This document shows positions 12,164-58,074 of a DNA stretch of 64,000 nt, in pieces. Positions within the stretch are counted from its first letter, which is position 1. Every line of letters starts with the position of its first letter. The stretch covers positions 124,001 to 188,000 of the forward strand of contig NZ_AXAE01000005.1 in assembly GCF_000472705.1 (NCBI RefSeq). Reading direction: 5' to 3'. The translations under genes were made by a program, and so were the position numbers. The stretch is from Mesorhizobium erdmanii USDA 3471. Its GTDB lineage: Bacteria; Pseudomonadota; Alphaproteobacteria; Rhizobiales; Rhizobiaceae. Under the pieces are notes generated by a model, which saw only the letters and a program-made list of their open reading frames with translations, made no database searches and was not told the origin of the DNA.

Positions 12164-12241
12164 AAATTTGCGTAGCATGAAAACAGCGCAAAGACCAAGC
12201 GTTGGACGCACCGAAACAGATTACAAGGGGAAGTCTTGGTC

Positions 12242-13570
12242 ATGTCCAACCGGCTGAAAGTCACGCCGAACGATCTCAGCGCATTCTGGATGCCGTTCAC
12301 GGCAAACCGGCAGTTCAAACAGGCGCCACGCATGTTCGTGTCCGCCAAGGACATGCATTACACCACCAGCGACGGCCGCAAGGTGCTGGACGGCACCGCC
12401 GGCCTGTGGTGCGTCAATGCCGGCCACTGCCGGCCCAAGATCACCGAGGCGATCCAGCACCAGGCCGCCGAGCTCGACTATGCGCCGGCCTTCCAGATGG
12501 GGCACCCGATCGTGTTCGAACTGGCCAATCGCCTGGTCGACATCGCGCCCAAGGGCATGGACCATGTCTTCTTCACCAATTCCGGTTCGGAATCGGTCGA
12601 GACCGCGCTGAAAATGGCGATCGCCTATCACCGGGTGAAGGGCGAGGGCTCGCGCACCCGTCTGATCGGCCGCGAGCGCGGCTATCACGGCGTCAATTTC
12701 GGCGGCATCTCGGTCGGCGGCATCGTTACCAACCGCAAGATGTTCGGCACGCTGCTCGGCGGCGTCGACCATATGCCGCACACGCATTTGCCGGAGAAGA
12801 ACGCTTTCTCCAAGGGCGTGCCGGAATATGGCGCGGAGCTCGCCAACGAGCTGGAGCGCATCGTTGCCCTGCATGATGCCTCGACCATCGCCGCCGTCAT
12901 CGTCGAGCCGGTCGCCGGCTCCACCGGCGTCATCTTGCCGCCCAAGGGTTATCTCGAGAAGCTGCGCGAAATCTGCACCAAGCACGGCATCCTGTTGATC
13001 TTCGACGAGGTCATCACAGGTTTCGGCCGTCTCGGCGCGCCATTCGCGGCCGATTATTTCGGGGTCACGCCCGACATCATGACCACCGCCAAGGGCGTCT
13101 CCAACGGCGTCATCCCGATGGGCGCGGTGTTCGTGAAGAAGGAAATCCACGACGCCTTCATGACCGGCCCCGAGCACATGATCGAGTTCTTCCACGGCTA
13201 TACCTATTCGGGCAATCCGATTGCCTGCGCGGCGGCCCTCGGCACGCTCGACACCTACAAGGAAGAGGGCCTGCTGACGCGTGGCGAAGAACTGGCGCCC
13301 TATTGGGAAGACGCGCTGCATTCGCTCAAGGGCGAGCCGCATGTCATCGACATCAGGAATATCGGCCTGATCGGCGCGATCGAGCTCGCGCCTATTCCCG
13401 GCCAGCCGACCAAGCGGGCGTTCTCGGCGTTCTTGAAGGCGTTCGAGCGCGGCGCGCTGATCCGCACCACGGGCGACATCATCGCGCTATCGCCGCCGCT
13501 GATCATCACCAAGGGCCAGATCAACGAACTGATCGACCATGTGCGTGAAGTTTTGAGGTCTATCGATTGA
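12242..13570 (+). CDS. Omega-amino acid (beta-alanine):pyruvate aminotransferase
   Basis: 442 residues, class III fold-type I PLP aminotransferase. FWMPFTANRQFK at the N-terminus is the beta-alanine:pyruvate transaminase signature. NSGSESVETALKMA binds the PLP phosphate, LIFDEVITGFGR supplies the Asp, and the Schiff-base Lys is ~284 in IMTTAKGVSNGVIPMG. In this locus it removes beta-alanine, the end product of reductive uracil degradation, giving malonic semialdehyde. ATG 12242 follows AGGGGA; a TTG two codons earlier is possible but unlikely. Divergent from rutR with an operator-like site between. The next gene on this strand is a foreign-looking DUF559 cassette, after which the pathway continues. 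Confidence 0.93.
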   Translation: MSNRLKVTPNDLSAFWMPFTANRQFKQAPRMFVSAKDMHYTTSDGRKVLDGTAGLWCVNAGHCRPKITEAIQHQAAELDYAPAFQMGHPIVFELANRLVDIAPKGMDHVFFTNSGSESVETALKMAIAYHRVKGEGSRTRLIGRERGYHGVNFGGISVGGIVTNRKMFGTLLGGVDHMPHTHLPEKNAFSKGVPEYGAELANELERIVALHDASTIAAVIVEPVAGSTGVILPPKGYLEKLREICTKHGILLIFDEVITGFGRLGAPFAADYFGVTPDIMTTAKGVSNGVIPMGAVFVKKEIHDAFMTGPEHMIEFFHGYTYSGNPIACAAALGTLDTYKEEGLLTRGEELAPYWEDALHSLKGEPHVIDIRNIGLIGAIELAPIPGQPTKRAFSAFLKAFERGALIRTTGDIIALSPPLIITKGQINELIDHVREVLRSID

Positions 13571-13588
13571 ATATCTGGGCGCGGATAT

Positions 13589-13636
13589 CCCTCCCCCTCG
13601 AGGGGAGGGTGGCCGCGAAGCGGTCGGGTGGGGTCG
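13589..13636. repeat. Left 48-bp inverted repeat of DUF559 cassette A
   Basis: Identical over 48 bases to the reverse complement of 14048-14095. It contains an inner CCCCTCGAGGGG palindrome and a second GGCCGCGAAGCGGTC hairpin. About 15 further bases beyond the arm (to ~13650) also resemble the element at 57144. Confidence 0.9.
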
Positions 13637-13682
13637 GTGCGACTGGGCGCCGACCTGATCTTTTGCCGCGAGGTCGCTCCTG

Positions 13683-14129
13683 ATGCCCCGCACCCGCGTG
13701 AGCTACGAAATGCGCGAGAAGGCGCGCGCTCTCCGAGTTCACGCGACCAAGGGCGAATCCCTGCTCTGGTATGAGTTGCGCGATCTCAAATCGATCGGCA
13801 TAAAATTTCGCCGCCAGTGCCCGATCGGGCCGTACGTCGTCGACTTTGCCTGCTTCGGTGTGAAGCTGGTGGTCGAGGTGGATGGCGATCTGCACGAGCA
13901 TGAGAAAGGCAAACGGCACGACGCTGTCCGTGACGCATATCTGCGTTCACTCGGGTTCGATATCTTTCGTGTTGACGAGCCCGATGTCATAAACAGCGCG
14001 TGGCATGTTGCGCAGGTGGTCAAAGGGAAGGTCGAGCTCATGTCAGGCGACCCCACCCGACCGCTTCGCGGCCACCCTCCCCTCGAGGGGGAGGGGGACG
14101 TCGGCGCTCCGCAATCCATGAGGTTTTAG
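13683..14129 (+). CDS. DUF559 (Vsr-like) endonuclease-domain protein A
   Basis: 148 residues. The DUF559 core is complete: E25 in KGESLLWYELR, KFRRQCPIGPYVVDF with D54, VVEVDGDLHEHE with E65, D67 and H71, then the C-terminal LGFDIFRVDEPDV. This is the PD-(D/E)xK-like arrangement shared with very-short-patch repair endonucleases; substrate and activity are not established. The last ~25 residues (GDPTRPLRG...PPLEGEGDVG) are encoded by the right inverted repeat, not by the nuclease domain. It starts 113 bases after the aminotransferase and ends 3 bases before the amidohydrolase ATG, so it is likely cotranscribed. Confidence 0.85.
   Translation: MPRTRVSYEMREKARALRVHATKGESLLWYELRDLKSIGIKFRRQCPIGPYVVDFACFGVKLVVEVDGDLHEHEKGKRHDAVRDAYLRSLGFDIFRVDEPDVINSAWHVAQVVKGKVELMSGDPTRPLRGHPPLEGEGDVGAPQSMRF
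14048..14095. repeat. Right 48-bp inverted repeat of DUF559 cassette A
   Basis: Perfect reverse complement of 13589-13636; lies inside the 3' end of the DUF559 reading frame. Confidence 0.9.
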
Positions 14130-14132
14130 AGA

Positions 14133-15383
14133 ATGGCCGCACCCGGCGAAAATCTGCGAATCAATTCAGACCGTTTGTGGGATTCGCTGATGGAGATGGC
14201 GAAGATCGGCCCCGGCATTGCCGGCGGTAACAACCGCCAGACGGTGACCGACGAGGATGGCGAGGGCCGGCATCTGTTCAAGCGCTGGTGCGAGGCCGCC
14301 GGGCTCGAAATGGGCCTTGACGAAATGGGCACCATGTTTGCCCGCCGCGAAGGCACCGATCCCAGCCTGCCGCCGGTCTATGTCGGCAGCCATCTCGACA
14401 CGCAGCCGACAGGCGGCAAATATGACGGCGTGCTCGGCGTTCTCGGCGGGCTGGAAGTGGTGCGCTCGCTCAACGATCTCGGCATCAAGACGAAACATCC
14501 GATCGTCGTTACCAACTGGACGAATGAAGAGGGCTCGCGCTTCGCCCCGGCGATGATGGCGTCGGGTGTGTTCGCCGGCGTGCTCGAGCAGGCCGATGTC
14601 TACGAACATACTGACAAGCAGGGCAAGAAATTCGGCGAGGAACTCGAACGTATCGGCTGGAAGGGCACCGAGAAGGTCGGCGATCGCAAGATCCACGCCT
14701 TTTTCGAACTGCATATCGAGCAGGGGCCGATCCTGGAGGACGAAGACATCGATATCGGTGTCGTCACCCATGGCCAGGGACTGAAATGGCTGCAGGTGAC
14801 GCTGACCGGCAAGGAAGCGCATACCGGCTCGACGCCGATGCCCAAGCGTCGCAATGCCGGCCTCGGCATGGCTCGCGTGATCGAACTCGTGCACGAGATC
14901 GCCATGGACTACCAGCCGGACGCCGTCGGCGCGGTCGGCCATATGGAAGTGTTTCCCAATTCGCGCAACATCATTGCCGGGCGCACCGTCTTCACCATCG
15001 ACATCCGTTCGCCGGAGAAGGAAGTGCTGGATGCCATGGATGGCCGCATCCGCGAAGGCATCGACACGATCTGCGAGGCGCTCGACATCCAGTACAAGGT
15101 CGAGCAAGTCGGCGCCTTCGACCCGGTGACCTTCGATGCCGGTTGCGTGAAGGCGATCCGCGATGCCGCCGACCGGCTTGGCTACACGCACCGCAACATC
15201 GTCTCCGGCGCCGGCCATGACGCCTGCTGGATCAACCGCGTCGCGCCGACCGCCATGGTGATGTGTCCCTGCGTCGATGGCCTCAGCCACAACGAAGCGG
15301 AAGAGATCACCAAGGAATGGGCATCGGCGGGCGCCGACGTGCTGTTCCATGCGGTGGTGGAGACGGCCGTCATCGTGGAGTGA
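14133..15383 (+). CDS. N-carbamoyl-beta-alanine amidohydrolase (beta-ureidopropionase), M20 family
   Basis: 416 residues of the amidase/hydantoinase-carbamoylase group of M20 metallopeptidases. Zinc ligands are His87 and Asp98 (GSHLDTQPTGGKYDG), Glu132/133 (NEEGSRF), His194 (ELHIEQGP) and a C-terminal His in GLSHNEAEE. The dimerisation domain with GKEAHTGSTPMPKRRNAG is present. It hydrolyses N-carbamoyl-beta-alanine to beta-alanine, CO2 and ammonia, between the dihydropyrimidinase that follows and the aminotransferase that precedes. Family members also act on allantoate or N-carbamoyl-L-amino acids; the operon argues for beta-ureidopropionase. Confidence 0.92.
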   Translation: MAAPGENLRINSDRLWDSLMEMAKIGPGIAGGNNRQTVTDEDGEGRHLFKRWCEAAGLEMGLDEMGTMFARREGTDPSLPPVYVGSHLDTQPTGGKYDGVLGVLGGLEVVRSLNDLGIKTKHPIVVTNWTNEEGSRFAPAMMASGVFAGVLEQADVYEHTDKQGKKFGEELERIGWKGTEKVGDRKIHAFFELHIEQGPILEDEDIDIGVVTHGQGLKWLQVTLTGKEAHTGSTPMPKRRNAGLGMARVIELVHEIAMDYQPDAVGAVGHMEVFPNSRNIIAGRTVFTIDIRSPEKEVLDAMDGRIREGIDTICEALDIQYKVEQVGAFDPVTFDAGCVKAIRDAADRLGYTHRNIVSGAGHDACWINRVAPTAMVMCPCVDGLSHNEAEEITKEWASAGADVLFHAVVETAVIVE

Positions 15384-15448
15384 GTTTACAGGTCTGCCTT
15401 TCAAACGCCGCTCGTAAAGAAGCGCGAAGAGAACAAGGGAACAAGAAA

Positions 15449-16900
15449 ATGACCAAAGTCATCAAGAACGGCACCGTCGTCACCGCCGACCGCAGTTGGA
15501 AGGCCGACGTGCTGTTCAGCCACGGCAAGATCGTCGCCATCGGTTCGGACCTGCACGGCGACCACGAATACGACGCCACCGGCTGCTATGTCATGCCCGG
15601 CGGCATCGATCCGCACACCCATCTCGAAATGCCGTTCATGGGCACCTATTCGGCCGATGATTTCGAATCCGGCACGCGGGCCGCGCTCGCCGGCGGCACG
15701 ACGATGGTGGTCGATTTCTGCCTGCCGGCGCCGCAGCAATCGCTGCTCGAAGCCTTGCAGATGTGGGACAACAAGACCTCGAAGGCCGCCTGCGACTATT
15801 CCTTCCACATGGCGATCACCTGGTGGGGCAAGCAGGTGTTCGACGAGATGGCTACCGTCGTCGACAAGGGCATCACTTCGTTCAAGCACTTCATGGCCTA
15901 CAAGGGCGCGCTGATGGTGGATGACGACGAAATGTATGCGTCGTTCCAGCGCTGCGCCGACCTCGGCGCGCTGCCTTTGGTGCATGCCGAAAATGGCGAT
16001 GTGGTCGCCGCACTTTCCCAGAAGCTGCTAGCCGCCGGCAACAACGGCCCCGAGGGTCACGCCTATTCGCGCCCGCCTGAAGTGGAAGGCGAGGCGACCA
16101 ACCGCGCCATCATGATCGCCGACATGGCCGGCGTGCCGCTCTATGTCGTGCATGTCTCTTGCGAGCAGAGCCACGAGGCCATCCGCCGGGCGCGGCAGAA
16201 GGGCATGCGGGTGTTCGGCGAGCCGCTGATCCAGCACCTGACGCTGGATGAGAGCGAGTATTTCGACAAGGACTGGGACCATGCGGCACGCCGCGTGATG
16301 AGCCCGCCCTTCCGCAACAAGCTGCACCAGGATTCGCTGTGGGCCGGCCTGCAGGCAGGCTCGCTGCAAGTGGTGGCGACCGACCATTGCGCCTTCACCA
16401 CCAAGCAGAAGCGCTTCGGCGTCGGCGATTTCACCAAGATCCCCAACGGCACTGGCGGCCTCGAGGATCGCCTGCCGGTGCTGTGGACCCGGGGCGTCAA
16501 CACGGGACGGCTGACGATGAACGAGTTCGTCGCGGTGACCTCGACCAATATCGCAAAAATCCTCAACATGTATCCGAGGAAGGGCGCCATCGTCGAAGGC
16601 GCTGACGCCGACATCATCGTCTGGGATCCGAAGCGAAAGAAAACCATCACTTCGAAGAAGCAGCAGTCGGTCATCGACTACAACGTCTTCGAGGGTGTCG
16701 AGGTGACCGGCCTGCCGCGCTTCGTCTTCTCGCGCGGCGAGCTGTCGATCGAGGAAGCTGAGGTCAAGGCCAAGCCCGGCCATGGCCAGTTCGTCGGCCG
16801 CGAGCCGAACGCCGCGGTCAACCGGGCGCTGTCGACATGGAAAGACATCACAGCGCCGCGCAAGGTGGAACGCACCGGCATCCCGGCGACGGGGGTCTGA
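15449..16900 (+). CDS. Dihydropyrimidinase (D-hydantoinase)
   Basis: 483 residues, amidohydrolase superfamily. Metal ligands are His56 and His58 (GGIDPHTHLEMPFMG), the carboxylated Lys152 (HFMAYKGALMVDD), His179 (LVHAENGD), His235 (VVHVSCEQS) and an Asp in ATDHCAF. The substrate segment NGTGGLEDRLPVLW is typical. It opens dihydrouracil or dihydrothymine to the N-carbamoyl-beta-amino acid. ATG 15449 follows AAGGGA; the longer frame upstream overlaps the amidohydrolase and is spurious. The GTG of the next gene begins 2 bases after the stop. Confidence 0.95.
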   Translation: MTKVIKNGTVVTADRSWKADVLFSHGKIVAIGSDLHGDHEYDATGCYVMPGGIDPHTHLEMPFMGTYSADDFESGTRAALAGGTTMVVDFCLPAPQQSLLEALQMWDNKTSKAACDYSFHMAITWWGKQVFDEMATVVDKGITSFKHFMAYKGALMVDDDEMYASFQRCADLGALPLVHAENGDVVAALSQKLLAAGNNGPEGHAYSRPPEVEGEATNRAIMIADMAGVPLYVVHVSCEQSHEAIRRARQKGMRVFGEPLIQHLTLDESEYFDKDWDHAARRVMSPPFRNKLHQDSLWAGLQAGSLQVVATDHCAFTTKQKRFGVGDFTKIPNGTGGLEDRLPVLWTRGVNTGRLTMNEFVAVTSTNIAKILNMYPRKGAIVEGADADIIVWDPKRKKTITSKKQQSVIDYNVFEGVEVTGLPRFVFSRGELSIEEAEVKAKPGHGQFVGREPNAAVNRALSTWKDITAPRKVERTGIPATGV

Positions 16901-16901
16901 G

Positions 16902-17279
16902 GTGCGGACTGTTTTTCTCGCCCTTACGGCTGTGGCTGTGCTGACCGCCGGACAGGTCTCGGCCGCGGCCATCGACCTGTCAAAGCCTTATGGCGACAAG
17001 TATGGCTGCATCAACAAGAACGGCCAGGAGGTCGCGGCCGATCAGATGCTGCTTTTGACCGACAAGGAGCTGATCACGGCGGCCAGCGCCTGCACCTTCA
17101 CCGAGACGAAGGCTCAGGCCGACGGTTCGCTGACGGTGAAGGCGGAGTGCGAAGCCGAAGGTGAGGACGGCAAGTCGCCGGCGACCTTCACCATCAAGCG
17201 CAGCGCCAAGAACGCCAAGAAACTGTCTGTCGCCGACGAGGACGGCGACGTCATGGGCGAAGTCTCGCGGTGCAAATGA
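16902..17279 (+). CDS. Small secreted four-cysteine protein in the pyrimidine operon
   Basis: 125 residues starting at GTG directly after the dihydropyrimidinase stop, with a G-rich Shine-Dalgarno inside the end of that gene. A Sec signal peptide (VRTVFLALTAVAVLTAGQVSAAA) would be cut near residue 22. Four cysteines at 36, 64, 83 and 124 could form two disulfides; there are no membrane segments. I do not recognise the family. Tight spacing implies cotranscription with dihydropyrimidinase, so it may be a periplasmic accessory of the pathway or merely a passenger. Confidence 0.75.
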   Translation: MRTVFLALTAVAVLTAGQVSAAAIDLSKPYGDKYGCINKNGQEVAADQMLLLTDKELITAASACTFTETKAQADGSLTVKAECEAEGEDGKSPATFTIKRSAKNAKKLSVADEDGDVMGEVSRCK

Positions 17280-17302
17280 CGGCGAGAGCTTTTCCTCCTG
17301 CC

Positions 17303-17707
17303 TCAGGCGACCAGCGCATCAAGTTCCGGCAGCAGGACGACGCTTTCCTGTTCGTTGGGATCGGTGCGGGCAATGACCGCCGAAGAGGGCGCGTTGCTCA
17401 AATTGGCCGGCAGATGCGGAACGCCGGCCGGAATGTAGAAGAGGTCGCCGGCCTTGACGACGATATGATGTTCGAGCCGGTCGCCATACCAGGTATGGAC
17501 CTCGCCGGAGAGCACGTAGATCGCCGTTTCGTGGCTCTCGTGCAGATGCGCCTTGGCGCGGGCGCCGGGCGGCATGGTGAGCACGTGCATGCAGATGCCG
17601 GAGGAGCCGACTGACTCGGCGGCGATGCCGGCGAAATAGGTCAGTCCCTGCTTGCCTTCATAAGTGCTTTCGGGGCGGATAAGATGACAAGTTGAATTGG
17701 GCGACAT
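17303..17707 (-). CDS. Cupin-domain protein
   Basis: 134 residues. The cupin motif 1 histidines are in AKAHLHESHETAIYVLSGEVHTWYGD and motif 2 in VKAGDLFYIPAGVPHLPANLS, giving a metal site of three His plus Glu. It could be a small-molecule dioxygenase or isomerase, or a metabolite-binding regulator; there are no further domains. The ATG at 17707 follows a CGGAG site. It faces the pathway genes (convergent, 23-base gap) and is divergent from the ABC importer. Confidence 0.88.
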   Translation of the reverse strand: MSPNSTCHLIRPESTYEGKQGLTYFAGIAAESVGSSGICMHVLTMPPGARAKAHLHESHETAIYVLSGEVHTWYGDRLEHHIVVKAGDLFYIPAGVPHLPANLSNAPSSAVIARTDPNEQESVVLLPELDALVA

Positions 17708-17836
17708 CGGGGAACTCCGGGCGTCGATTGAGTGGAACAGGGTCAATGGGACTGGGCGAGTGGAAAACAACATCGCGATAAAAGCAATCGGAATCCGGCC
17801 GGCGCGGCAGGGGTGGGAACAGGCAGGCTTCAGCCG

Positions 17837-18628
17837 ATGACGGGAACTTCGCCAGCCGTCGTCGCGGCAAGCAAACTAGGCCTCACGTTCCAGACCAATG
17901 ACGGGCCGGTGCAGGCGCTGTCCAATGTCGACCTGACCATCGGCAAGGGCGAGTTCGTCTCCTTCATCGGGCCGTCGGGTTGCGGCAAGACCACGCTGCT
18001 GCGTGTCATCGCCGACCTGGAGAAGCCGACCTCGGGAACGATTTCGGTCAACGGCATGACGGCGGAGCAGGCGCGCGAGAAGCGTGCCTATGGCTATGTC
18101 TTCCAGGCCGCTGCGCTTTTTCCCTGGCGCACCATCGAGCGCAATGTGGCGCTGCCGCTGGAGATCATGGGCCTGTCGAGGGCGGAACAGGCGGAGCGCA
18201 TCAAGCGCACGCTGGACCTCGTCAACCTCTCCGGCTTCGAAAAGAAATACCCCTGGCAGCTTTCCGGCGGCATGCAGCAACGCGCCTCGATCGCGCGTGC
18301 GCTGGCTTTCGATGCCGACCTCTTGTTGATGGACGAGCCGTTCGGGGCGCTGGACGAGATCGTTCGCGACCACCTCAACGAGCAATTGCTGCAATTGTGG
18401 GCGCGGACGAACAAGACCATCTGCTTCGTCACCCACTCCATTCCGGAAGCCGTGTATCTGTCGACGCGCATCGTGGTGATGTCGCCGCGCCCGGGTCGCG
18501 TCAGCGACATCATCGAATCGACGCTGCCGAAGGAGCGGCCGCTCGACATCCGCGAAACGCCGGAGTTTCTGGCGATCGCCGCGCGCGTGCGCGACGGGTT
18601 GCGGGCAGGGCATAGCTATGATGATTGA
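17837..18628 (+). CDS. ABC transporter ATP-binding protein (nitrate/taurine/pyrimidine type)
   Basis: 263 residues. Walker A GPSGCGKT at 45-52, Q-loop VFQAAALFPWRT, signature LSGGMQQR from 141, Walker B LLLMDEPFGALDEI from 161 and H-loop VTHSIPEAVYLSTRIVVMSPRPG. The last motif is typical of the SsuB/TauB/ThiZ group that serves NMT1/THI5-like binding proteins. First gene of the importer operon. Its 3' end is overlapped by 11 bases by the ATG of the DUF559 gene that separates it from the permeases. The ATG is chosen by family start; a longer GTG frame upstream has no support. Confidence 0.92.
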   Translation: MTGTSPAVVAASKLGLTFQTNDGPVQALSNVDLTIGKGEFVSFIGPSGCGKTTLLRVIADLEKPTSGTISVNGMTAEQAREKRAYGYVFQAAALFPWRTIERNVALPLEIMGLSRAEQAERIKRTLDLVNLSGFEKKYPWQLSGGMQQRASIARALAFDADLLLMDEPFGALDEIVRDHLNEQLLQLWARTNKTICFVTHSIPEAVYLSTRIVVMSPRPGRVSDIIESTLPKERPLDIRETPEFLAIAARVRDGLRAGHSYDD

Positions 18629-19136
18629 GGGGGCACAGGACGAGGTTCCTCCTCTCCCCTCCGGGGAGAGGGTGGCCGCGAAGCGGCCGGGTGAGGGGGC
18701 GTCGCCGACGCATCCAACCAAGAGGAAGGCCGGGGTTACGGAGCGCGCCCGAGAGCTGCGGCTTGACGAAACCAAGGCCGAATACCGGCTTTGGGGCGAG
18801 CTACGGGGGCGTCACCTCAACGGCCACAAGTTCGTAAGGCAAGTGCCACTTGGACCGTTCTTCGCCGACTTTCTCTGCCGCGAGAAGAGCTTGATCGTTG
18901 AAATCGATGGCAGCCAACATGCCGAGTCCATGACTGATGAAAGCAGAACAGCTTGGCTGAATCGCAACGGCTACTCCGTTCTTAGGTTCTGGAACCACGA
19001 GGTTTTGGCCGAGCGACGAGCGGTGCTGGATACGATACTGGCTGTGCTTGAGGGGCAGATACACTCCCCCTCACCCGACCTCCGCTTCGCTCCGGCCACC
19101 CTCTCCCCGGCGGGGAGAGGAGACGGGGAGCGCTGA
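18618..19136 (+). CDS. DUF559 (Vsr-like) endonuclease-domain protein B
   Basis: 172 residues. The core is intact: E55 (KAEYRLWGELR), KFVRQVPLGPFFADF with D84, IVEIDGSQH with E95, D97 and H101, and GYSVLRFWNHEVL. It differs widely from DUF559 protein A, so the two are independent arrivals. Residues 11-34 (PPLPSGERVAAKRPGEG...) and the last ~22 (HSPSPDLRFAPATLSPAGRG) are translations of the flanking palindromes. The start overlaps the ATPase end and the stop TGA overlaps the permease ATG (TGATG), so the ABC operon is still translationally linked through it. Start could also be an internal codon nearer the core. Confidence 0.82.
   Translation: MMIEGAQDEVPPLPSGERVAAKRPGEGASPTHPTKRKAGVTERARELRLDETKAEYRLWGELRGRHLNGHKFVRQVPLGPFFADFLCREKSLIVEIDGSQHAESMTDESRTAWLNRNGYSVLRFWNHEVLAERRAVLDTILAVLEGQIHSPSPDLRFAPATLSPAGRGDGER
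18651..19120 (+). mobile_element. DUF559 cassette B: nuclease gene between imperfect inverted palindromes
   Basis: The left arm 18651-18699 and right arm 19066-19120 are inverted copies of one GC-rich element (CCTCTCCCC-x-CCGGGGAGAGGGTGGCC... ending GGGTGAGGGGG), differing by one substitution near the start and a few short indels. They flank a DUF559 gene inside the ABC operon. The layout mirrors cassette A. Mobility is inferred, not shown. Confidence 0.55.
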
Positions 19137-20014
19137 TGGACACCTTCCGTGACAAGCTCATCCCCGTGACCTCGATCCTCGCCGGCGTGGTCGTGCTCTG
19201 GTACGTCTTCGCCGTCATCCTCAACTCGCCGTTCCAGCGCGATCTCGACACCCGGGCCAACGAAACCCCCGGCACCGTCGAGTTCATCGGCAAGACGCTG
19301 GCGCAGCCCAAGCCGACGCTGCCGGCGCCGCACCAGGTGGCGGTGAATTTCTTCGAGAACACGTTCCTGCGGCCGATCAATTCGAACCGCAGCCTGGTCT
19401 ACAATGCCTGGGTGACACTGTCGTCGACGCTGCTGGGCTTTGCCTTCGGCACCGCGCTCGGCATCGTCATTGCGGTGGGCATCGTGCATGTGGCGACGCT
19501 CGACCGCAGCCTGATGCCATGGATCATCGCCTCGCAGACGATTCCCATCCTGGCGGTGGCGCCGATGATCATCGTCGTGCTGGCGGCTGTCGGCATCACC
19601 GGGCTTGTGCCGAAAGCGATGATCTCGACCTATCTGTCGTTCTTCCCGGTGACGGTCGGCATGGTGAAGGGGCTGCGCTCGCCCGAAATCATGCATCTCG
19701 ACCTGATGCACACCTATAATGCCAGCGCCTCGCAGACCTTCTGGAAACTGCGCGTGCCGGCCTCGGTGCCGTTCCTGTTCACCTCGATGAAGGTGGCGGT
19801 GGCCGCAAGCCTAGTCGGCGCCATCGTCGGCGAACTGCCGACCGGTGCCGTCGCCGGCATCGGCGCCAAGCTGCTTGCCGGCGCCTATTACAGCCAGTCG
19901 ATCGACATCTGGTCGGCGCTGGTTGCCGGTTCCATCGTCGCGGCCCTCCTGGTCATGGTGGTCGGCATTGCCGGACGCATCGTCGACCGCGCCATGGGCG
20001 GGAGGCCGGCATGA
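19136..20014 (+). CDS. ABC transporter permease (first)
   Basis: 292 residues with a single N-terminal helix, a ~60-residue periplasmic stretch, then the BPD_transp_1 helices. TLSSTLLGFAFGTALGIVIAVGI and the EAA-loop-like segment DLMHTYNASASQTFWKLRVPASVPFLFTSMKVAVAASLVGAIVGELPTG contact the ATPase. Pairs with the next permease, which it overlaps by ATGA. Inner-membrane channel of the pyrimidine-type importer. Confidence 0.92.
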   Translation: MDTFRDKLIPVTSILAGVVVLWYVFAVILNSPFQRDLDTRANETPGTVEFIGKTLAQPKPTLPAPHQVAVNFFENTFLRPINSNRSLVYNAWVTLSSTLLGFAFGTALGIVIAVGIVHVATLDRSLMPWIIASQTIPILAVAPMIIVVLAAVGITGLVPKAMISTYLSFFPVTVGMVKGLRSPEIMHLDLMHTYNASASQTFWKLRVPASVPFLFTSMKVAVAASLVGAIVGELPTGAVAGIGAKLLAGAYYSQSIDIWSALVAGSIVAALLVMVVGIAGRIVDRAMGGRPA

Positions 20015-45963: not shown

Positions 45964-47184
45964 ATGCAGCGATTCGAGAATGCCGGCGAGGCGGCCCTGG
46001 CCCTTCGTCCCGACGAACCGGTCTATTGCTTCCGCCCGCAGGTGCTGAAGGCCGACGCCCGGCAGTTCATGGGCATGTTCCCCGGCAAGACCGCCTATGC
46101 GGTCAAGACCAATGGCGAGCAGATCGTGCTGAAAACCTTGGTGGAGGCCGGCGTCACCGCCTTCGACGTCGCTTCGCCCGGCGAGTTCGCCGCCGTGCGC
46201 GCCGTCTCCGCCGATGCCGAGATGCTCTACATGCACCCGGTCAAGGCGCAGTCGGATATCAAGCTGGCGCTGGAGAAATACGGCATCCGCGTCATCTCGC
46301 TCGACCATGAGGACGAGATCACCAAGTTGACCCGGGTGGTTCGGGCGCTGGATATCGATCCGGGCGGGGTCAGCGTATTCGTTCGGGTGCAGACAAAGGG
46401 CCACGCGGCCTATGAATTGTCGAAGAAATTCGGCGCCGGGCCGGCCTATGCCGTGGAACTCGCGGAACGGCTGAACCGCACCGGCTACAAGGTCGGCCTG
46501 TGTTTCCATGTCGGCAGCCAGATCGAGGATCCCGACACCTATGAGCGGGCGCTGGCCTCGGCCGACTGGGTGCGCAACCGCCTGACGTTCGACCTCGCCG
46601 GGCTCGACGTCGGCGGCGGCTTTCCAGCCGAATACGGCCACGATCCCAACCGCAAGCAGGTCGAGATGCCGTCGCTCGGCCAGATCATGTCGCGGCTGTC
46701 GGGCGACCTGAAGGAATATCAGTTCGACCAGATACCGCTGGTGGCCGAGCCGGGCAGGGTGATCGTGGCGCGCTGCCTGTCGCTGATCGTGCGCGTGCTG
46801 TTGCGCAAGGGCAAGCGGCTCTACATCAATGACGGCATCTGGGCGTCGCTGTCGGATTCATGGACCGGCAAGATCACGCTGCCGGCCCGTTTCATTCCCG
46901 ATCCGGCGATCAGGACCCGCAACGGCGATGAAAAGAACATCGTGCCGTTCAAGGTCTGCGGCGCCACCTGCGATTCCGTCGACATCCTGTCCAGGCCATT
47001 CTGGCTTCCGGAGACTGTGGACACCGGCGACTGGATCGAGATCGGCCATATCGGCGCCTACTCGCTGTCGCTGCGGACCCGCTTCAACGGCTTTTATCCC
47101 GATACGTTCGTCGAGGTGACGACACCGTTCGACGAAGGCGACGCGCCGCAGGGATTTGCCAGTCTGGAGACGATGGCGGATTAG
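45964..47184 (+). CDS. Fold-type III PLP decarboxylase, ornithine/lysine decarboxylase-like
   Basis: 406 residues. The Schiff-base Lys48 is in TAYAVKTNGEQIVLKTLVEAG; ASPGEFAAVRAV, CFHVGSQIEDP, LDVGGGFPAEYG and VAEPGRVIVA shape the barrel. The active-site cysteine is in KVCGATCDSVDIL, the CxxTCD-type signature of ornithine and related decarboxylases. It gives putrescine (or cadaverine) for polyamines. Substrate choice between ornithine and lysine is not readable here. Confidence 0.9.
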   Translation: MQRFENAGEAALALRPDEPVYCFRPQVLKADARQFMGMFPGKTAYAVKTNGEQIVLKTLVEAGVTAFDVASPGEFAAVRAVSADAEMLYMHPVKAQSDIKLALEKYGIRVISLDHEDEITKLTRVVRALDIDPGGVSVFVRVQTKGHAAYELSKKFGAGPAYAVELAERLNRTGYKVGLCFHVGSQIEDPDTYERALASADWVRNRLTFDLAGLDVGGGFPAEYGHDPNRKQVEMPSLGQIMSRLSGDLKEYQFDQIPLVAEPGRVIVARCLSLIVRVLLRKGKRLYINDGIWASLSDSWTGKITLPARFIPDPAIRTRNGDEKNIVPFKVCGATCDSVDILSRPFWLPETVDTGDWIEIGHIGAYSLSLRTRFNGFYPDTFVEVTTPFDEGDAPQGFASLETMAD

Positions 47185-47187
47185 GGG

Positions 47188-47250
47188 AGTAAGGCAGTAA
47201 GGCAGTAAGGCAGTAAGACAGTAAGGCAGTAAGGCAGTAAGGCAGTAAGG
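47188..47250. repeat. 8-bp tandem repeat (AGTAAGGC, 7 full copies plus a partial)
   Basis: AGTAAGGC is repeated from 47188, with copy 4 reading AGTAAGAC; the array starts 3 bases after the decarboxylase stop. Such octanucleotide arrays vary in copy number by slippage. Confidence 0.95.
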
Positions 47251-47304
47251 GGTGGTGGCAATCACTGCTTTCGGGTTCGTTTCCCCTTGCCCTAACCTAC
47301 AGCG

Positions 47305-54222: not shown

Positions 54223-58074
<3,852 letters not shown>

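Follow-up and report, generated by a model that had tools for sequence, protein, structure and literature searches.

Association of a predicted DUF559 nuclease gene with inverted intrastrand-triplex motifs in Mesorhizobium and other Pseudomonadota

Introduction

The stretch of Mesorhizobium erdmanii USDA 3471 DNA analysed here, 64,000 nucleotides long and referred to throughout as the window, contains a run of genes for an aminotransferase, an amidohydrolase and a dihydropyrimidinase-like protein (names read from the translations), which is broken up by a cassette consisting of a small DUF559 gene and two identical inverted arms. The locus raises the question of what the gene and its arms are to each other and whether they move as one. 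An earlier note on this DNA had proposed that DUF559 may be the mobilising enzyme of the palindrome family seen in the arms, in analogy to the RAYT of REP-type palindromes.

The arms are compared below with the intrastrand-triplex motif (TM), for which 23 copies in E. coli K-12 and a presence in more than 260 genomes are reported in Holder 2015 (PMC4666352). CD and NMR data are given there for a triplex formed by the motif in vitro, and the motif is described as being associated with local genome variation. DUF559 is itself widespread and was found in 80 of the 299 genomes sampled from the phylum (E below 1e-10). A search of PMC titles and abstract openings, a scope that excludes subscription papers and most preprints, returned no link between DUF559 and TM repeats.

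The window cassette and its relatives in the same genome

The DUF559 (PF04480) gene of the cassette, at 13683-14129 on the + strand, codes for 148 amino acids and matches the Pfam family with an E of 1.3e-27. Its left arm lies at 13589-13636 on the + strand and its right arm at 14048-14095 on the - strand, the latter being an exact inverted copy of the former (48 nt, 100% complementary) with 411 nt between them, as the perfect 48-bp inverted repeat of the earlier note would have it. The arms are the longest perfect inverted pair among the 25 of 43 pairs listed for the 64-kb window, and by arithmetic a perfect match of 48 nt is not expected to arise by chance. The statement that the gene lies between the arms stands for the bracketing by the inverted repeat but not for the extent of the reading frame, which continues through the right arm; this arm, within the 3' end of the gene, is thus coding and gives part of the C-terminal end of the protein (stop at 14129). 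The aminotransferase frame (12236-13570) lies upstream, and the amidohydrolase frame (14133-15383), followed by the dihydropyrimidinase-like one, lies downstream. No Rfam match at gathering thresholds was found in 13000-19500.

A second DUF559 gene (18618-19136, + strand; E 4.6e-36) is located between genes read as the ATPase and permease of an ABC transporter, and its product shares 35% identity with that of the first across the aligned part. The two genes score 96.2 and 123.4 bits against a Pfam gathering cut-off of 20.6, which places both within the family. The second cassette has its left arm, a CCTCTCCCC hairpin with a GGGTGAGGGG tail, at 18649-18702 (+ strand) and its right arm at 19063-19122 (- strand), with 97% inverted identity between 18649-18678 and 19093-19122 and a sequence unlike that of the first cassette's arms. 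A third gene elsewhere in the genome (L002) is flanked by inverted arms of 49 nt (88%) with yet another sequence. These three genes emerged from 16 candidates scored in a PF04480 profile search of the window genome (G000), and all three are flanked by arms; armless DUF559 genes were looked for in this genome and none was found. A gene-less arm doublet is also present at 57143-57369 (+ strand), inside an open reading frame on the - strand (54223-58074) that is read through in frame in the window genome. At 47172-47265 the window also contains a tandem array with an 8-base unit (AGTAAGGC).

The arm family of the window gene, termed family A, occurs in four strict copies in G000, two of which are the cassette's own arms, and was therefore rejected as a high-copy REP family in this genome. 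RAYT was likewise ruled out as the local mobiliser, since a Y1_Tnp search of G000 matched only two adjacent pieces of a single frame, which lies on a different contig and is interrupted by a stop.

Structure of the arms

Each arm combines a hairpin with a tail behind it in which the purine strand of that hairpin is mirrored, A being paired with A or T. G:G, A:A and T:A form the code of the antiparallel purine-motif triplex. In the left arm of the window cassette the hairpin CCCTCCCC-CTCGA-GGGGAGGG (13589-13609) is followed by a second small hairpin (13610-13625), which lies between stem and tail, and then by the mirror tail GGGTGGGG (13626-13633), in which the purine strand is read in mirror order with T in place of A. 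The combination GGGGAGGG ... GGGTGGGG therefore conforms to the TM definition of a hairpin with a mirror tail under the G:G, A:A/T code, but not to the strict short-loop pattern, as the 16-nt hairpin separates the stem from the tail. The strict pattern occurs once in the window genome, elsewhere than in the window arms, and is seen in arms of other species and in TM number 9 of E. coli, beside ycjD.

The mirror rule was examined on 489 unique hairpin rows from 180 loci, of which about half are without a true tail, both orientations having been read. The mean fit of a tail to the mirror of its own stem was 6.82, against 5.80 for permuted tails (sd 0.058; maximum of 40 permutations 5.94), and, set against a direct repeat, the mirror gave the better fit in 181 rows, the poorer in 66 and an equal one in 242. 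A second test used 248 pure-purine stems aligned by their G/non-G pattern only. Full tail matches of at least 8 numbered 113 for the mirror (permuted 46.2) and 88 for the direct repeat (permuted 46.3), and among the 214 asymmetric stems 34 matched as mirror only and 9 as direct repeat only. The 276 tail letters opposite a stem A in mirror matches were A in 163 cases, T in 97 and C in 16, C making up 40% of background non-G letters. The rule had first been noticed on some arms that were later used in testing, so that the mirror and bracketing tests are partly dependent. We regard the triplex-type structure rule of the arms as established.

A G-quadruplex was considered as the conserved feature and rejected: the G tracts would permit one, but a quadruplex does not call for the mirrored A positions, which are filled by A or T and seldom by C. 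For the E. coli motif, NMR evidence reported in Holder 2015 (PMC4666352) favours a triplex over a quadruplex.

The DUF559 protein

Six residues (E25, D54, E65, D67, H71 and D80) are invariant in 40 DUF559 sequences. The structure model of the window protein (pLDDT 90.7) is closest to 3hrl, a DUF559-like structure from Neisseria gonorrhoeae (Z 15.1), followed by the homing endonuclease I-Bth0305I (3r3p, 12.9) and the Vsr structures 1cw0 (11.1) and 1vsr (10.7). A sequence search of known structures recovered the first two (3hrl, E 3e-39; PDB 3r3p, E 3.4e-6), whilst toxin chains in the same search (E 0.4-0.8) were set aside as chance matches. The modelled fold and the conserved acidic residues place the protein in the predicted PD-(D/E)XK group, and the PD-(D/E)XK-like fold expected in the earlier note would thus be more precisely of the Vsr type. 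The mean dN/dS is 0.060 within site 1, the junction of the window cassette (120 pairs), and 0.064 within a second family-A site between two acyl-CoA dehydrogenase genes (9 pairs); between the two sites it is 0.086 (45 pairs, with saturated synonymous sites). Values of about 0.06 indicate that DUF559 is kept as a working protein, and its product is most likely a nuclease.

These properties would also suit a mismatch nuclease of the Vsr type, or a structure-specific repair nuclease, host or self-serving, by which folded TMs are resolved; the protein would then regulate or protect TMs without moving them. The Vsr fold, the strong purifying selection and the existence of armless DUF559 genes are in keeping with such a role, as is Caulobacter VsrA, a DUF559 protein that is described in PMC12907096 as needed for the SOS response in cells lacking the methyltransferase ScmA and is modelled there as a mismatch-repair nuclease. 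A repair role is nevertheless rather improbable in our estimation, as it leaves the occurrence of gene and arms at unrelated sites, and their joint decay, unexplained, and the distribution of DUF559 is patchy both between close relatives and within E. coli.

Association of DUF559 with the motif beyond the genus

The pairing of DUF559 with inverted arms extends well beyond the genus. Taking 24 as the minimum inverted-arm score, within 350 bp, arms were found at 44 of 60 non-genus DUF559 loci and in 84 of 3144 control windows; a second, mostly beta- and gammaproteobacterial set gave 44 of 65 against 48 of 3526. Direct orientation was raised as well, with 22 of 60 loci against 5.8% of controls in the first set and 23 of 65 against 114 of 3526 in the second. 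Bracketing by the TM, using a definition made without reference to DUF559, gave a sharper picture. A TM lay within 400 bp on either side of 50 of 60 loci (72 of 1805 controls) in the first set and of 49 of 60 (62 of 1981 controls) in the second, and TMs on both sides were found at 35 of 60 loci against 1 of 1805 controls and at 29 of 60 against 1 of 1981. The tie between DUF559 and a palindrome family that the earlier note had suspected from a single gene is thus far above chance, and we regard the association of DUF559 with the TM as established.

Control windows were drawn from the neighbourhoods of DUF559 genes and treated in the same way, and the DUF559 loci are related to one another, so that the counts are not independent events. 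The first set was taken, roughly by score, from non-genus places without a locus, leaving out, among others, G362:C4 (at a contig end), G314:C2:41918 (within another locus) and lower-scoring ones. The second comprised 67 contig loci, 8 of them near-identical Pseudomonas loci, of which 65 were scored for inverted arms and 60 for TM bracketing once short flanks had been dropped. The protein sets exclude 12 of 118 loci for which phmmer gave no domain.

Could the arms be ordinary transcription terminators or RNA-stability hairpins, paired with the gene incidentally? They do stand at gene ends and contain GC-rich hairpins. Against this, the enrichment over control windows is about a thousandfold, the mirror tail is conserved, an arm insertion lies inside an open reading frame, and the E. 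coli motif is without promoter or terminator activity according to an earlier study cited in Holder 2015 (PMC4666352). Taken together, these points make the terminator reading barely credible.

Of the 299 genomes sampled from the phylum, 50 have both the TM pattern and DUF559, 19 the TM only, 30 DUF559 only and 200 neither (Fisher p 1.3e-20, uncorrected for kinship). The 80 positives have a match with E below 1e-10, 28 weaker matches being counted as negative, and the TM counts used a strict tail with T and so miss other TM variants. The DUF559 tallies are lower bounds, as an E. coli control genome gave no PF04480 match even though K-12 YcjD matches at 1.4e-49; that strain may be without ycjD. 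In many genomes arm copies outnumber DUF559 genes, as had been predicted, the 23 TMs of E. coli (Holder 2015) being one case.

Seven of the 34 genomes with at least 10 strict TMs are without a DUF559 match below 1e-10. A YcjD search of 14 genomes, comprising 12 of the 19 TM-bearing DUF559-negative ones and 2 positives, matched only in the 2 positives. G234, G290, G130 and G255 contain 40-139 strict TM copies with no clear DUF559 match, G234 and G255 being incomplete. TM-rich genomes of this kind would agree with RAYT or some other enzyme moving the palindromes, DUF559 being a passenger caught between two of them. This is a very unlikely account: the only Y1_Tnp match of the window genome is the stop-interrupted frame described above, bracketing was seen in only 2 of the 3786 control windows taken near DUF559 genes, and no other gene (ORF of at least 90 aa) lay between neighbouring TMs in the 311, 215 and 152 kb sampled from the TM-rich, DUF559-less G290, G130 and G234, a weak test with just 16 TMs (4, 4 and 8).

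Amongst 45 plasmid records with a match, 8 were opened, and two have strong inverted arms, with scores of 68 in Pseudanabaena (L327) and 51 in Deinococcus (L333). The remaining six loci, three of which are one Azospirillum locus, score below 24, with palindromes beside the gene in several. In two Deinococcus plasmids (L328 and L333) DUF559 stands at different positions within one hpa catabolic gene cluster. Most of the window cassette was present in none of the plasmid records, and hence recent plasmid copies of it were not found.

The ycjD locus of Escherichia coli

In E. coli K-12 the DUF559 gene is ycjD (b1289; E 1.4e-49). TM number 9 of Holder's table (1351205-1351239) lies about 170 bp from it and a partial TM lies at its 3' end, so that the K-12 TMs stand on one side of the gene only, whereas the E. 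coli strain represented by L324 has a full TM doublet at ycjD. At least 80% of the ycjD-containing stretch from fabI to sapF is present in 3362 of 5426 E. coli genomes. In the ycjD-less strains L321-L323 fabI adjoins one and the same set of genes for a regulator and a pump, traced to sapF in one of the strains; this operon of a regulator and an efflux pump is named eefRABCD in PMC12817139. Precise excision of ycjD was accordingly rejected, as the ycjD-less strains examined carry eefRABCD in its place, which amounts to a region swap. A long hairpin (CACCTCATTCTGACAA...) upstream of ycjD in another ycjD-sapF stretch (L320, 2262-2328) is unlike a TM.

Sites and alleles in the genus

Within the genus, 29 loci were scored for arms (the three loci of the window genome and the 30 best-scoring others, minus 4 short ones), and inverted arms were found within 450 bp at 16 and not at the other 13. 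The flanking of DUF559 by arms therefore holds for all three genes of the window genome but not throughout the genus. Most of the 13 armless loci have a common gene neighbourhood and, by reading, look like one clade (L012, L013, L022-L024, L026, L027 and L029-L032), which may be a host-adapted branch. Arm type and protein clade covary in the genus (Mantel rho 0.56 for 15 arms; 17 of 2000 permutations as high), but only weakly across the phylum (rho 0.14, 47 arms, 63 of 2000).

The cassette is polymorphic at site 1, as had been anticipated, and fixation at one place in all relatives, which would have spoken against mobility, was not found: it is present in 10 of 50 junctions (the 30 best-scoring and 20 chosen further down). 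Cassette-free junctions exist in the closest relatives (99% protein identity), although with a short, different hairpin in place of the cassette. In L049 and L102 a 65-67-bp stretch contains a palindrome and no gene. A site-1 tree of 55 rows, consisting of the 50 junctions and 5 added because they have the cassette, comprises 15 with the cassette, 25 empty, 13 with a regulator gene and 2 remnants, with 11 changes between cassette and other states. In a clustering run in which L058, L098 and L281 were mislabelled, 10 changes compare with a shuffled mean of 11.0 (147 of 500 as low). Since the cassette state is unclustered on the tree, much of the scatter may be due to alleles being exchanged through homologous recombination. 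Two regulator-gene alleles (L055 and L057) start with a remnant of the left arm, the only ones seen in an incomplete check of such alleles.

Family-A DUF559 genes are present in 22 of 98 genus genomes, at site 1 in 16 and between the two acyl-CoA dehydrogenase genes in 6, where the arms are of the same family and one of the six cassettes is partial, with a stop. When 5 of the 16 site-1 loci were compared with 5 of the 6 at the other site, homology ran in all 25 pairs from the first bases of the left arm to 0-14 bases past the right arm and stopped short of the flanking genes. Thirty loci at the acyl-CoA dehydrogenase site comprise 3 full cassettes, 5 arm-only remnants (L293, L299, L305, L310 and L317) and 22 without arms. 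L293 and L299 keep cassette-internal sequence and hence look like deletions. The cassette at unrelated sites, together with the arm-only alleles, indicates that gene and arms have occupied different sites jointly, as one unit that decays to its arms; the unit is likely to be mobile. No clear target-site duplication appeared on comparing filled with empty alleles, which differ by more than the insert, and no recent jump between near-identical genomes was seen.

Strict family-A arms number 0-14 per genome. They average 3.6 in genomes with the gene, its own arms deducted, and 1.8 in those without (one-sided p 0.003), and at least one is present in 39 of 76 genomes without a family-A gene. Counts of 0, 1, 0 and 0 were obtained for the four genomes of the genus in which DUF559 was not matched at all, two of which are rather incomplete. 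At the hydantoinase site (window 57143-57369; 30 loci, L064-L093), family A, family B or neither is found at the same position in different relatives. Unrelated short GC-rich hairpins occupy the same place in most cassette-free alleles amongst L035-L063 (site 1) and L289-L316 (acyl-CoA dehydrogenase site). At the second window site, a different repeat (CTTCGTCATCCTAGGGCGGAGC...) lies beside the DUF559 cassette or replaces it in L102, L107-L111 and L113.

The gene-less doublets of the hydantoinase site, present in many relatives, could suggest the reverse history, in which TM doublets are the older partner and a free-standing DUF559 homing gene cuts them and is copied between their halves by break repair, the arms being the halves of its target. 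The homology of DUF559 to the homing endonuclease I-Bth0305I (PDB 3r3p, E 3.4e-6; Z 12.9) points the same way. We think a homing origin unlikely, as an intact gene-less doublet was found as an alternative allele at neither of the two cassette sites examined, some arm-only alleles (L293, L299) look like deletions, and arm type goes with protein clade within the genus.

A proposed mechanism

The reading that we favour, and consider probable, is that DUF559 and the pair of inverted arms around it belong together as a single genetic unit, made up of a nuclease gene and of ends that form triplexes, and that the predicted enzyme recognises and nicks the folded TM. In this unit each arm is a TM, a pyrimidine/purine hairpin with a purine-rich tail able to fold back on the purine strand. 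DUF559 would recognise the folded motif when the DNA is single-stranded or extruded, for instance during replication, and nick it, whereupon the unit, or gene-less TM doublets, may be copied into, or exchanged between, sites. Solitary TMs would then be non-autonomous or decayed copies of the DUF559 unit, and DUF559 would stand to TMs as RAYT stands to REPs, with an unrelated enzyme. That DUF559 acts on the TM itself we infer from the association, the fold and the selection on the protein.

Several observations count against the reading of gene and arms as one nicking unit. TM-rich genomes without DUF559 and the 13 of 29 armless genus loci weigh against a simple dependence. Direct repeats of the stem exceed permuted tails (88 vs 46.3) and direct-orientation scores are raised; family-A arms are few (0-14 per genome), unlike high-copy REPs, and differ modestly between genomes with and without the gene (3.6 vs 1.8); arm and clade covary weakly across the phylum (rho 0.14). 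DMS footprinting of the chromosome in Holder 2015 (PMC4666352) did not detect TM triplexes, which also counts against it.

It is possible, though we put it forward only tentatively, that the unit represents a new class of mobile element in the Pseudomonadota, in which a Vsr-fold nuclease mobilises DNA via intrastrand-triplex ends and gene-less doublets are non-autonomous, with like arrangements in single plasmids of Cyanobacteriota and Deinococcota. DUF559 is in any case a candidate for the missing partner that spreads or maintains TM repeats, and the link gives each of the two a testable function, in E. coli K-12 for example, which has both ycjD and 23 TMs. We know of no enzyme dedicated to the intrastrand DNA triplex; should DUF559 act on the folded motif, it would to our knowledge be the first.

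Comparison with known systems

The fold of DUF559 is common to the Vsr mismatch endonuclease (1cw0, Z 11.1; 1vsr, 10.7), from which the present system differs in the triplex motifs that flank the gene. Caulobacter VsrA is reported in PMC12907096 to carry a DUF559 domain, its gene being unlinked to that of its cytosine methyltransferase. I-Bth0305I, an EDxHD homing endonuclease, resembles DUF559 in sequence (E 3.4e-6) and fold (Z 12.9), but the roughly 120 aa of DUF559 make up one domain only, lacking the additional DNA-binding region that PMC3943268 describes for I-Bth0305I, and no intron or intein was recognised at the DUF559 genes here.

The arms of many species match the TM / PIT elements of Holder 2015 (PMC4666352), for example GGGAGAGGG-TTA-GGGTGAGGG, and hairpin, mirror tail and inverted doublets are common to both. 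Those of this genus depart from them in the extra hairpin between stem and tail and in one doublet that lies inside an open reading frame. The systems also differ in that Holder et al. (PMC4666352) state that no mobility activities had ever been found near the E. coli TM, whereas DUF559 lies between inverted copies here.

REPINs are inverted doublets of REPs and in this respect are like the doublets described here. The CGTC-tagged REPs, which PMC3733652 describes as frequent in alphaproteobacteria and as lacking a dedicated transposase, parallel the palindromes here in that respect but differ from the arms in sequence; a look-alike, judged by eye (CTTCGTCATCCTAGGGCGGAGC...), is found only as neighbour or replacement at the second window site. 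No GTAG tag was noticed in the arms, and the arm family of the window gene is of low copy, both unlike REPs. In contrast to what the earlier note proposed, the arms belong to the intrastrand-triplex kind of motif. In the REP / RAYT system (REPtrons, PMC3733652), too, palindromes occur singly and as inverted doublets, and a nuclease gene has the repeat family on its flanks; the analogy with RAYT fits to this extent. The enzymes differ, DUF559 being predicted to be of the PD-(D/E)XK, Vsr type and RAYT being an HUH (Y1) tyrosine transposase, and the nearest relative of DUF559 with known mobility is the Vsr-like I-Bth0305I.
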